A stretch of 49,038 nucleotides of DNA, from positions 1 to 49,038 of the IMG/VR virus record IMGVR_UViG_3300025636_000007, one strand, 5' to 3'. Every line of letters begins with the position of its first letter. The stretch's first letter is position 1. Made by a program: the position numbers and the translations under genes. Source of the DNA: a virus. This document shows, piece by piece, positions 34,043 through 41,712 of the stretch. Below the pieces are notes generated by a model. The model searched no databases, was not told where the DNA came from, and saw only the letters and a list, made by a program, of their open reading frames with translations.

Positions 34043-35347
34043 TTATACATCACTATTATCTAATTTAACACCCGTGAACGTGATACTATACAATTCTGGT
34101 TTGAATGAATGTTTCGCTGAGAATAATAAGTAATCACCCGATTTCTTACTATCAAAAGGATTCTCTTCATTTTCACTGTTACTTAAAAATCTAAGTCTCA
34201 ATTTTCTACCTACAGTATTATACCTATCACTACTAAAAAAATCTACACCATTGACTACGAACGTCAATGGCGATTTCTTGACCAAAGATACCATAGCACG
34301 ACCTGCTACATCTAATCTATACTTACCTTCACTAACACGTTCTGAAAACGTCTGATAATCTTCATACGCTGAGGTACCACCAATCTGAGAAGTGATACGA
34401 CTCTCGATAATGTTATATGGTTTACCGTCTAATTTATAATCTTCAGTGTACAGTGGTTTACCGGTCACAATGCCACTAGCCTTCATTTTAGCGATGACAT
34501 CTTTTACTACATCAAACTTAACATCGACTTCGGTGTTCTTGGTCACATTGAAATATTGATGTTTACTACCTATGTGTCCTGCGTCAATAATACTGAAAAG
34601 GTCTTCTGTCTTAGAATACTTGTAACTTAACATTTTACGACGTTTAGTAACCTGATTACCATCAACGGCGTTATCAGATTCGGAATAGGTATATGGCGCC
34701 TTAGGGTTCATTGGAACTGCGGTCATCATCGATTCTAAATCGTGGAATATCAGTGCGTTCTGTTGTAAGGGGGAGAACAAATAATATGGGTACCCGTCCT
34801 GAGTGGTTGTCTTATTTTTAATCCAATTCAAGGCATTCAAAGGAGTCAGGTTAGGAATAATAACTCTCATCTCGTGAGCGTCCTTAGAACTAGATTGAAA
34901 CTCTCTCCCGAGTATGGCAGAAATATTAGCACAAATCTTTGTTCCCGTACCTTTGTATGCTTTGTTAACGTTAAGCAAGTTAGATTCGAATGCGATATCT
35001 TCTAATATATGACAAATGATGTATTCATTAGTACCATTAACTTTATCACTTGATATTATCTTGTCTATATAAAATATCTTTTTAATGTTCGCGCCATCTG
35101 TTTGACTTGACGCAAAAGTAATTTCTAATTTTTCACCACCACCAAAGTCAACGGAACCTAACAAATCGGTAGAATCCATAAATCCGATTACACCAGTTAA
35201 GTACGGTTTCTCTATATGCTCATATATGTCTATATCACTAACGGTATTAGTAATATTAAGTGGTACCGATATCTTGTCCGACGATAGAATTACCGTCCAC
35301 TGGACATCAGTAATTTGTTCTACAGCACTAGGAGATACCGAACTCAT
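34043..35347 (-). CDS. 27: Baseplate hub protein gp27-like
   Basis: A 434-residue protein (T4 gp27: 391). It has the hub arrangement of two tube-like beta domains: SVPLNITNTVSDIDIYEHIE, YLTGVIGFMDSTD, FYIDKIISSDKVNG, then ISAILGREF, IPNLTPLNALNWI and YPYYLFSPL, a pattern shared with gp27 and gpD-like hubs. The C-terminal region is GDYLLFSAKHSFKPELYSIT followed by FTGVKLDNS. The trimer makes the pseudo-hexameric adapter between the spike (gp5) and the tube. It overlaps the gp53 gene by four bases at its start and abuts gp5 at its end, matching functional order. Confidence 0.83.
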   Translation of the reverse strand: MSSVSPSAVEQITDVQWTVILSSDKISVPLNITNTVSDIDIYEHIEKPYLTGVIGFMDSTDLLGSVDFGGGEKLEITFASSQTDGANIKKIFYIDKIISSDKVNGTNEYIICHILEDIAFESNLLNVNKAYKGTGTKICANISAILGREFQSSSKDAHEMRVIIPNLTPLNALNWIKNKTTTQDGYPYYLFSPLQQNALIFHDLESMMTAVPMNPKAPYTYSESDNAVDGNQVTKRRKMLSYKYSKTEDLFSIIDAGHIGSKHQYFNVTKNTEVDVKFDVVKDVIAKMKASGIVTGKPLYTEDYKLDGKPYNIIESRITSQIGGTSAYEDYQTFSERVSEGKYRLDVAGRAMVSLVKKSPLTFVVNGVDFFSSDRYNTVGRKLRLRFLSNSENEENPFDSKKSGDYLLFSAKHSFKPELYSITFTGVKLDNSDV

Positions 35348-38438: not shown

Positions 38439-39161
38439 ATGGCATCAATAGAAGAATTAAAAAGTAGAATAATATCGAAGAATGGTATGGCGATGTCTAA
38501 TCAGTTCATGGTTACTTTACCACCTCTCGCGGGTGCGGGTGCGCGTACAATGAATGTACTGTGTAAGGCGGTAACTATGCCGGGGAAACAAATAACCACG
38601 TTAGACCGTGCTGTAGGTATCCACAATGAAAAAATTGTAAGTGGTTATTTAGTAGATGATGTTTCCATGACGTTTTATGTTTTGAATGACTATGGTGTTA
38701 AGAAATACTTTGATACTTGGAAACAGTTAATGGTAGGTGACCAAATATCTAGAGGCAAGACAAAGGAAGTTCCTGCCGAGGAAAGTGAGAAAGAAACAGG
38801 AGCTGATGGTGAAAAGAAAGAAACTAAGTCAGTGCCCGATGGTTTGGATGTTGGTGAAGTGGGATATAAATCTAATTACGCTAAACCCGTTAAAATTCAT
38901 CAACTGAGTAAACCACAAGCGAGATTTGGTTTTGATATAGGGCCATTGGATTTGAATCTGGACATAGGTGGAACATCCATATATACAGTGGAACTAATAG
39001 ATGCGTTCCCTACATCTATGGGTGCCATAGAACTAACAAACGACGCAGATGGTTTAGTAGAACTCACAGTACAGTTATCGTTTACTGACTGGAAAGTAGT
39101 AGAAGATAAACGTCCATTATTGGCGGGGTCAGTAGGACTCAATCTAGGCGGACTAATTTAA
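38439..39161 (+). CDS. Tail-tube-fold protein (tube initiator gp54 or tube gp19-like)
   Basis: The 240-residue protein has the tube-protein pattern: NGMAMSNQFMVTLPPLAG, NVLCKAVTMPGKQITTLDRA, VGIHNEKIVSGYLVDDVSMT and FYVLNDYGVKKYFDTWKQ, ending with a second beta domain (YTVELIDAFPTSMGAIELTN, LVELTVQLSFTDWKVV). An acidic/basic insert rich in Glu and Lys lies at about residues 108-135. Tube proteins (gp19, 163 residues) and the initiator gp54 (320) share this fold; the intermediate length and hub-gene neighbourhood favour gp54, but a gp19-type role is open. Start is four bases after the upstream stop. Confidence 0.8.
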   Translation: MASIEELKSRIISKNGMAMSNQFMVTLPPLAGAGARTMNVLCKAVTMPGKQITTLDRAVGIHNEKIVSGYLVDDVSMTFYVLNDYGVKKYFDTWKQLMVGDQISRGKTKEVPAEESEKETGADGEKKETKSVPDGLDVGEVGYKSNYAKPVKIHQLSKPQARFGFDIGPLDLNLDIGGTSIYTVELIDAFPTSMGAIELTNDADGLVELTVQLSFTDWKVVEDKRPLLAGSVGLNLGGLI

Positions 39162-39193: not shown

Positions 39194-39901
39194 ATGGCTT
39201 TACCAAAACTGAATGCTACACCGACATATGAATTGACAATACCTTCGACCGGACAAAAGGTTACATACCGTCCGTTCGTGGTTAAGGAACAAAAAACTTT
39301 ACTGATTGCGTTAGAGACCCAAGATAGAAACGGTTTACTACGGGCAATCAGTAGAACAATACATGCGTGTATTGAACAACCACTTGATGCCGCACTATCG
39401 ACATTTGATGTAGATTATGCGTTTACTCAGATTCGTTCTAAATCAGTGGGCGAGTCTACTAAAATAGTATTACCGTGTTCAGCTTGTTCTGAAAACAACG
39501 AATTAGATGTTGACCTCACAGACATAAAAGTCGAAGGGGATGTACGACCTACTATTATCAAATTAACAGATGATATTAGTGTAAAAATGCGTTACCCCGC
39601 ATATGAGGAATTAATTGATAATCCTAATATGTTAGAGGGTACCAGTGTAACACAATCGATAATTGAATTGTTAGTCTTATGTATGGACAGTGTCCACACA
39701 GAAGAAGAGCGATACTCATTACGAGATGAGACACGAGAAGAGACTATTAACTTTATTGAGTCAATGAATCCTGCTCAGTTCGAACAACTGGCAGACTTTA
39801 TTAATAATATTCCAAGTATCCAGAAGGACTTAGAGTTTAAATGCACATCGTGCGGGGAGACTACTAATAGAGTTCTACAGGGGATGGATGATTTTTTTTA
39901 G
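39194..39901 (+). CDS. 26: Baseplate hub/tail assembly chaperone gp26-type
   Basis: The protein of 235 residues has the T4_baseplate-type pattern TYELTIPSTGQKVTYRPFVV followed by KEQKTLLIALETQDRNGL, and later IKVEGDVRPTIIKLTDDISV and KMRYPAYEEL. Two CxxC pairs (CSAC near residue 97 and CTSC near 217) could bind one zinc. The ending is QGMDDFF-stop with a run of eight Ts. It sits directly before the tape-measure gene, as tail assembly chaperones do in many tailed phages. AGGA precedes the ATG. The overlapping -1 frame (39892-40080) encodes a probable frameshift extension. Confidence 0.83.
   Translation: MALPKLNATPTYELTIPSTGQKVTYRPFVVKEQKTLLIALETQDRNGLLRAISRTIHACIEQPLDAALSTFDVDYAFTQIRSKSVGESTKIVLPCSACSENNELDVDLTDIKVEGDVRPTIIKLTDDISVKMRYPAYEELIDNPNMLEGTSVTQSIIELLVLCMDSVHTEEERYSLRDETREETINFIESMNPAQFEQLADFINNIPSIQKDLEFKCTSCGETTNRVLQGMDDFF
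39892..39898 (+). other. Candidate -1 programmed frameshift site (T TTT TTT)
   Basis: The eight-T run 39892-39899 contains T TTT TTT read as TTT-TTT in the gp26 frame, followed by TAG. A one-base slip back keeps both Phe codons paired (TTT-TTT) and continues TTA-GTA-AAC into the 60-codon frame up to 40080, bypassing the stop. The heptamer is a legal X-XXY-YYZ slippery site. Confidence 0.65.
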
Positions 39902-40080
39902 TAAACCTCTCTCATGATACTTTGGCTAACTACTATCAAGTAAACTTCCAATTATTGAATAACTTTAATTATTCTCTGGACGAAATAGAAAGTATGTTGC
40001 CTTGGGAGAGGGAGATTTATTTGACTATGTTAATAGACGATATAAAAGAAAAGACTGAAAGGTCTAGAAATAAAGGTTAA
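39892..40080 (+). CDS. -1 frame extension of the gp26-type chaperone (gp51-like)
   Basis: This frame opens right after a TGA (39889-39891) and encodes FF-LVNLSHDTLANYYQVNFQ, LLNNFNYSLDEIESML, PWEREIYLTMLIDDI and a charged end. The ESMLPWEREIYL stretch is characteristic of small tail assembly proteins in T4-like phages. There is no ATG or GTG with a ribosome site at its beginning: the first ATG (39994) is 28 codons from the end and the only early candidate is a TTG at 39922 without a ribosome site. It is therefore most simply made as a 295-residue fusion with gp26 through the slippery site. Confidence 0.7.
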   Translation, partial: FFLVNLSHDTLANYYQVNFQLLNNFNYSLDEIESMLPWEREIYLTMLIDDIKEKTERSRNKG

Positions 40081-40086
40081 CAAAAA

Positions 40087-41712
40087 ATGTCATTATCACA
40101 AATAGTCGAAAAGTTGCATGAGTCTAATTATATTGCTGCTGATACTAATGAAATTGTAGGCAAAATAGAAAAACATCTCGAAGCGCGTCGGATAATAGAT
40201 GAACAGGCCGCGTTAGATGATTTGGAATCGAGTAGTGAATCGCGTCAAAACTCTCCGACTAACAATAACCGCCCAGGAGCACCGGCACCCGGCAGAGGAA
40301 ATAGTAAATTCTCTGAGAAAATGGGTGACGCGTTGTCGGGCGGTATTTCTATTGGTGCTAAAGGTCTCGGTATCGCTACGGGTCTTGGTGCCTTAGGTTT
40401 TGGTATTGGCGCATTCTTTACGGGGTTAGCCGCTGGGGACAAAGCACAAGAACTGATTGGTGCTGACATGCAGACCACCAAAAAGAATATGATTACACTA
40501 GGTCAAGCATTCGCGGAGACCCCCACAGAGGGTCTTATAAAAATGGGAATTGCCGCGGGAATTGGTGCCAAGTTTGGTAGTATCAAAGGTGCCCTTGGTA
40601 TGACATTTTTTGGTGCGGGTCTTGGTGGTTTCTTCGCGGGTCTTGCGTTAGGTGATAAAGGTGCTGAACTTCTTAAAGTAAGTGGTTCTGGTCTCACTAC
40701 CATGATGGTATCTTTCGCTGAAGGTTTAAACGCATTCAGCGGCAAATCATTGGTTGCTTTTGGGGGACTTGTCGCGTTGGCAGCGTCTCCATTCGGTGCG
40801 AAAGCGTCATTCATGCTTCCCTTATTAGGTGTTGGTGTGGCAGGATTCTTTGGTGCCATTGCGGGTATCGGTGACCTTTTGGCTAAGGGTGGGATAACCG
40901 GTGAAGGTATGAAGACCATGATGGTCAACTTAGCAGAAGGATTAAATCCACTAGGAGAACTAGATGGTGTGAACCTGCTTGCTGTAGGTGCCGCTATGAC
41001 TGCGATTGGTGTTGGTATGGTAGCATTATTGGGCGGTAAAGGACTATCTGCCATAGGGGATGCTATAGGTAAAATTTTCGGTTCGGATGAAGATGAGGAT
41101 GTTTTTACAAAAACTGCTAAGTCTCTAAGAAAGTTAGAGGGTATTGACGCAAGTAGATTCACAGGAATTGATAGTGTCGCTAACTCCATATCGGGTCTTA
41201 CCTCGGCAATCAACAGTATGAACGACCTTGATATTGATGTGGGTGATATTGAAGATGAGATGGAGAAATTCGCAAAATCTATTGCGGGTAGTATGGTAAT
41301 TTTCAACTCAATGTGGAACGGTGGTAAAATCGGTGAAGGTTGGATGGATGGGATTAGTGAGATAGATTTTGGTGTAGGTTTGAAAGATTTACCTATAGAT
41401 AAAATCAGTTCTAAAATCTCTGTGATGACTAATGGTATAAAGGATGGTTTCCAATCGGTCACTGGGGGTGGTGAAGAATCTACCCCGGCAGCAAGTGTAT
41501 CACCAGTAAAGAAATCTACGACTTTAGGTAAGGCAGAGAGTCTGGCTCAGGTTCAGAGAGCAAATATGGAAATGGTTGATTTTGTTGGTAGTGCGACTGC
41601 GATAGATAGTTCAACTAAGGTTAACAATGTTAATAACAGTTCTAATGTACACCATAGTGGCGGTTCTGGTGCGCATGATGCACTAGACCCAATGATGGGA
41701 AGTAGAGCATAG
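40087..41712 (+). CDS. 29: Tape-measure protein (gp29-like)
   Basis: The 541-residue protein follows the gp26/gp51 region, as a tape measure should; T4 gp29 has 590 residues. The N-terminal 50 residues are helical and charged, followed by an Asn/Pro/Gly linker (about 55-72) and a long Gly/Ala-rich hydrophobic core (about 80-325). That core contains three repeats at exact 72-residue spacing: GAFFTGLAAGD (108), GGFFAGLALGD (180) and AGFFGAIAGIGD (252), each followed by a MMVSFAEGLN-type motif (first copy degenerate). The C-terminus is Asn/Ser/His-rich. It sets tail length and is threaded through the tube. At about 1.5 angstrom per residue it fits a tail near 80 nm. Confidence 0.78.
   Translation: MSLSQIVEKLHESNYIAADTNEIVGKIEKHLEARRIIDEQAALDDLESSSESRQNSPTNNNRPGAPAPGRGNSKFSEKMGDALSGGISIGAKGLGIATGLGALGFGIGAFFTGLAAGDKAQELIGADMQTTKKNMITLGQAFAETPTEGLIKMGIAAGIGAKFGSIKGALGMTFFGAGLGGFFAGLALGDKGAELLKVSGSGLTTMMVSFAEGLNAFSGKSLVAFGGLVALAASPFGAKASFMLPLLGVGVAGFFGAIAGIGDLLAKGGITGEGMKTMMVNLAEGLNPLGELDGVNLLAVGAAMTAIGVGMVALLGGKGLSAIGDAIGKIFGSDEDEDVFTKTAKSLRKLEGIDASRFTGIDSVANSISGLTSAINSMNDLDIDVGDIEDEMEKFAKSIAGSMVIFNSMWNGGKIGEGWMDGISEIDFGVGLKDLPIDKISSKISVMTNGIKDGFQSVTGGGEESTPAASVSPVKKSTTLGKAESLAQVQRANMEMVDFVGSATAIDSSTKVNNVNNSSNVHHSGGSGAHDALDPMMGSRA

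Follow-up and report, generated by a model that had tools for sequence, protein, structure and literature searches.

A tail assembly chaperone gene on a T4-like phage contig with a probable -1 frameshift on a conserved T run

Results

A single gene for a tail assembly chaperone of the T4 gp26/gp51 family was found in the window, and we consider it roughly 90% probable that this gene gives two products through a -1 shift on the heptamer T TTT TTT. The window comprises the full 49,038 bases of IMG/VR record IMGVR_UViG_3300025636_000007, which may be a genome fragment, and phrog matches show that it carries T4-like tail genes. A -1 slip on this heptamer, giving a lambda G/GT-like pair before a probable tape-measure gene, had been proposed by a sequence-only reading and is still the best explanation. 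The labels used there, a gp26-type gene followed by a gp51-like one, had to be replaced by one tail assembly chaperone gene with a frameshifted C-terminal domain, which is equivalent to both.

The first open reading frame of the locus, ORF1 (39194 to 39901, plus strand), opens with ATG, closes with GAT TTT TTT TAG and encodes the 235-amino-acid short chaperone (TAC-N). It matched PF12322 at 6e-55 with 186.7 bits, exceeding the curated cut-off of 24.5, and phrog_150 at 9.9e-57, the latter match stopping at profile position 232. PF12322 occurs once in the 49-kb contig, and the separate gp26 and full-length gp51 arrangement of T4 is absent from this possibly fragmentary contig. An AlphaFold2 model of ORF1 (pLDDT of 86) strongly matched predicted structures of T4-like hub proteins in Foldseek. 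Among solved structures no match was significant; those of low rmsd included 3fgx (probability 0.75, E 1.3, with an rmsd of 2.9 across 56 columns) and 2ob9, which is HK97 gp13 (probability 0.28, E 2.8). Both are tail assembly chaperones (PMC9603447), and these modelled fold matches lend weak support to the chaperone identity. We infer a chaperone function for ORF1 and for the fusion.

The heptamer (39892 to 39898, plus strand) is followed immediately by the 0-frame stop TAG (39899 to 39901, plus strand), whose first base is the last letter of an eight-T run spanning 39892 to 39899. After a slip of one base, the first new codon would be TTA (39898 to 39900), and the -1-frame extension (39898 to 40080, plus strand) would add 60 amino acids before TAA closes the frame at 40078 to 40080. 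The predicted frameshift product, TAC-NC (39194 to 40080, plus strand), would thus have 295 residues (235 + 60) and a junction peptide reading ...DDFF-LVNLSHDTLANYYQ... (with FF-LVNLSHDTL across the join); its prediction draws on homology, selection and heptamer conservation. The T run, the stop, the 60 codons and the 295-residue fusion all lie where they had been placed in the sequence-only reading. Moreover, a -1-frame TGA (39889 to 39891, plus strand) lies directly before the T run, so that the frame can be entered only on the Ts, and the -1 frame has two open codons upstream of the ORF1 stop, both within the run. Eight-T runs as such are not rare in this A+T-rich contig, with 2 found versus about 5 expected; thus, the argument rests on homology and conservation and not on rarity. 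A further in-frame GAT TTT TTT is located at codon 369 of the gene at 34043 to 35347 on the minus strand, in the baseplate region.

The gene upstream of ORF1 (38439 to 39161, plus strand) encodes a tail tube family protein (gp54-like/tail tube; phrog_45, 3.3e-31). Downstream, an open reading frame of 541 amino acids (40087 to 41712, plus strand) begins 6 nt past the extension and encodes a Gly-rich protein with hydrophobic segments, probably the tape-measure protein as judged by its position, its length and a plausible composition. A search for tape-measure homology yielded no sequence match for this protein among 50,697 phage records (E 0.01) or among Pfam and PHROG profiles, although the adjoining chaperone is well conserved.

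We then looked at the extension itself, which, from its profile matches and its selection, is taken to be the T-like C-terminal domain of the long chaperone. It is matched by phrog_634 ("baseplate hub assembly catalyst") at 3.8e-22 and also by phrog_150 positions 235 to 282 at 6e-8, exactly where the ORF1 match leaves off. The second frame had been described as lacking a good start, and this was borne out. Its earliest possible start, a TTG at 39922, has no Shine-Dalgarno (SD) sequence and lies some 20 nt beyond the stop, and the codons ahead of it align with those of relatives; starting at the first -1-frame ATG would drop half of the domain. Among the relatives, 37 of 98 have no -1-frame start codon within the first 14 codons and 65 of 98 have no ATG. 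The extension frame is under strong purifying selection, with pN/pS values of 0.06 between the window and its relative L026, 0.12 to 0.21 against seven more distant relatives and 0.05 to 0.35 in other close pairs. The distant pairs are near saturation at synonymous sites, and it is L026 and the other close pairs that carry weight. The other two frames of the extension gave pN/pS above 1 where measured. In public phage records, for example L002, L003 and L013, the frameshifted domain appears as a gene of its own ("baseplate hub assembly catalyst") whose start is arbitrary; it is omitted in L023.

Conservation of the slippery site, a check that the sequence-only reading had called for and that came out in favour of the shift, was assessed in loci gathered from IMG/VR and from annotated phages; a locus was counted if it had the two domains on the same strand. 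The window is identical to locus L004 and was thus dropped as a duplicate from the distinct set, and locus L147 was left outside the frame classes. The -1 layout was observed in 199 loci, 198 of which carry U UUU UUN, read in the 0 frame, close to where ORF1 ends. After removal of duplicates, T TTT TTN was present among the final 12 codons of ORF1 in 174 of 175 loci (at most three codons from the stop in 165), compared to 0.0066 heptamers per gene predicted by their frequency in the remainder of these frames; as the loci share ancestry, these counts are not independent events. The conserved set includes cyanophages, a Pelagibacter phage and phages of Vibrio, Aeromonas, Pseudomonas, Caulobacter and rhizobia. 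At 98 distinct junctions, the codon before the Phe-Phe pair always ends in T and the pair itself invariably opens with TTT. TTT-TTC was used at 46 of these junctions versus 1 of the 60 Phe-Phe pairs found elsewhere in these genes, a codon bias indicating that retention of Phe-Phe alone does not explain the conserved heptamer.

The T run is compatible with a different event, in which RNA polymerase would add an extra U on the eight Ts and thereby produce a subset of mRNAs with fused frames. A run of this type can in principle cause polymerase slippage, and it is present in the window and its close relatives. However, in over half of the relatives the run is just six Ts, followed by C, A or G in the same phase (98 of 174 have T_TTT_TTC), which is too short for efficient polymerase slippage; the T TTT TTN phase is preserved, and the SD-like element described below is a translational signal. 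Transcriptional slippage thus appears unlikely. Homopolymers are also prone to sequencing errors, and the split might in principle be such an error or a decaying gene, with the frames truly fused or the second one dead. The identical phase and heptamer in 198 contigs and phage records, isolates included, refute this for the family, and pN/pS values of 0.06 to 0.21 exclude decay, so that we give this explanation practically no weight.

Upstream of the heptamer, pairing with the anti-SD sequence peaks sharply at offset -16 across the family (mean of -6.5 kcal/mol, with a background of about 0), and in the window AGGGG (39879 to 39883, plus strand), 8 nt ahead of the heptamer, reaches -7.1 kcal/mol; the 16S tail of the phage's own host may differ. 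The element lies about 10 nt upstream of the heptamer across the family and is stronger than the encoded peptides require, with a mean dG of -6.55 observed versus -4.93 ± 0.15 after synonymous resampling that kept the same peptides (z = -10.7). AGGGG is therefore a probable 5' stimulator. On the 3' side, a conserved hairpin was considered and rejected, since the best-stem length was 8.0 versus 7.8 for controls in the window's class; the downstream hairpin of the window is weak (-4.6 kcal/mol). On average, RNA structure just 3' of the heptamer exceeds that of controls (z = -1.41). Strong stems a few bases past the slip site occur in a few cyanophages, P-SSM2 (13 bp) and S-PM2 (15 bp) (L016 and L017), and are absent from the window's relatives.

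Some loci depart from this layout. In L008 (3001 to 3751) and L011 (3001 to 3860), which are 52% identical in ORF1, the extension is found in the +1 frame, and the junction reads C TTT TTT C (AGC or AAC, then TTT TTT CGN). Slipping forward by one base, from UUU to UUC, would connect these frames, and a switch to +1 frameshifting is possible; one missing T in both assemblies is an unlikely cause, as the contigs are independent. Two scans for further +1-frame members found none. Pseudomonas phage Cygsa01 (L206, 1501 to 2411) is the sole -1-layout locus without the heptamer, and its stop/ATG overlap TAATG suggests reinitiation. A second frame with its own ATG and no slippery site, which the sequence-only reading had held to speak against a shift, is thus found in the Cygsa01 lineage and not in the window. 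Four other loci, L018, L019, L021 and L022, keep the heptamer and have an ATG overlapping the ORF1 stop; both routes, shift and reinitiation, may operate there.

These overlaps bear on whether the second frame of the window could be translated separately, by termination and reinitiation from a non-ATG or overlapping start. TAATG or TGATG occurs at the junction in L018, L019, L021, L022 and L206, and a "gp51" gene of its own is a frequent entry in database annotations. However, apart from L206 the relatives with an overlapping ATG retain the heptamer; the first start available in the window is the SD-less TTG already mentioned, behind codons that align with relatives; and in T4 gp51 the extension domain works as part of a long protein. 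For the window, we regard separate translation as very unlikely and retain the -1 shift.

We also compared the locus with T4, in which genes 26 and 51 adjoin on opposite strands and both products are PF12322 members. T4 gp26 (208 amino acids) corresponds to the ORF1 part only and has the short architecture, whereas gp51 (249 amino acids; phrog_150 positions 13 to 280, phrog_634 at 1.2e-23) has the ORF1 part and the extension in one frame. The fused protein thus exists in nature, and T4 makes from two paralogous genes of this family what the window phage would make from one gene with a predicted shift. The end of T4 gene 26 reads GAG TTC TTT GAG TTA CTA TAA, with Phe-Phe kept and the slippery heptamer lost. 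The T4-type arrangement also occurs in Aeromonas phages Aes012 and avDM5. In a tree, the diverged gp26 and gp51 groups lie on long branches and the deep forks lack resolution, so that the tree supports neither the -1 shift nor the duplication as the ancestral state.

Discussion

The occurrence of the shift and its frequency are predicted here from the observed frames, homology, selection and conservation of the heptamer and the SD-like element. In the proposed mechanism, most ribosomes would stop at the TAG at 39899 and release the 235-amino-acid short form. A minority, delayed as AGGGG pairs with 16S rRNA and as the stop codon moves into the A site, would shift by one base to the -1 frame on T TTT TTT and translate 60 further codons to yield the 295-amino-acid long form. 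The locus resembles lambda gpG/gpGT in having a short protein and a -1 frameshifted long form ahead of a tape-measure gene, which in the window is a probable one, assigned by position. The lambda slippery sequence is G GGA AAG, unlike the T run found here. If the two forms act as gpG and gpGT do, coating of the tape-measure protein would fall to the short form, and the long form would bring in tail tube subunits through its C-terminal domain; the frequency of the shift would set their ratio.

The sequence-only reading had suggested that such a locus would link the T4 hub genes to the frameshifted tail chaperones. This link is not new, having been published by Vladimirov, Gautam and Davidson (2022, Virology 566:9, on T4-like tail assembly chaperones), as cited in PMC10885494 and PMC12846349. 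According to the former, some T4-like phages have one short and one long chaperone gene without frameshifting; according to the latter, poly-T stretches in the TAC-N genes of T4-like phages are established -1 signals. As far as these citing papers go, the chaperones concerned belong to the same protein family as that of the window, and our contig is a further member. A 2016 review of frameshifting still gives T4 as the exception to G-T frameshifting (PMC5009743). The TAC locus of the Vandenendeviridae/Andersonviridae (phage Adele, PMC12846349), for which a -1 shift was suggested on GTTTTT, a conserved poly-T motif located where TAC-N ends, differs from that of the window by its description, in phage family and in motif. 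Relative to what the citing papers report, the quantification, the SD-like element, the +1-frame variant (two loci) and the one lineage without the heptamer are possibly new.

Overall, frameshifting is very probably the way in which T4-like phages beyond the T4 group obtain their chaperone pair, and an independent large-scale comparison now backs this. In many database entries, the C-terminal domain is either missing or listed as a gene of its own, named "baseplate hub assembly catalyst". We tentatively propose, as an idea with somewhat less than even odds, that within this one chaperone family there are four interchangeable ways to the short/long pair: a -1 shift with an SD-like stimulator in most lineages, a +1 shift at UUU C in L008 and L011, coupled reinitiation without a slippery site in Cygsa01, and gene duplication in T4. 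If true, this would suggest that the pair and its ratio are selected and not the mechanism. How strictly the short/long ratio controls tail assembly could be tested with the natural set of -1, +1, reinitiation and duplicated versions.
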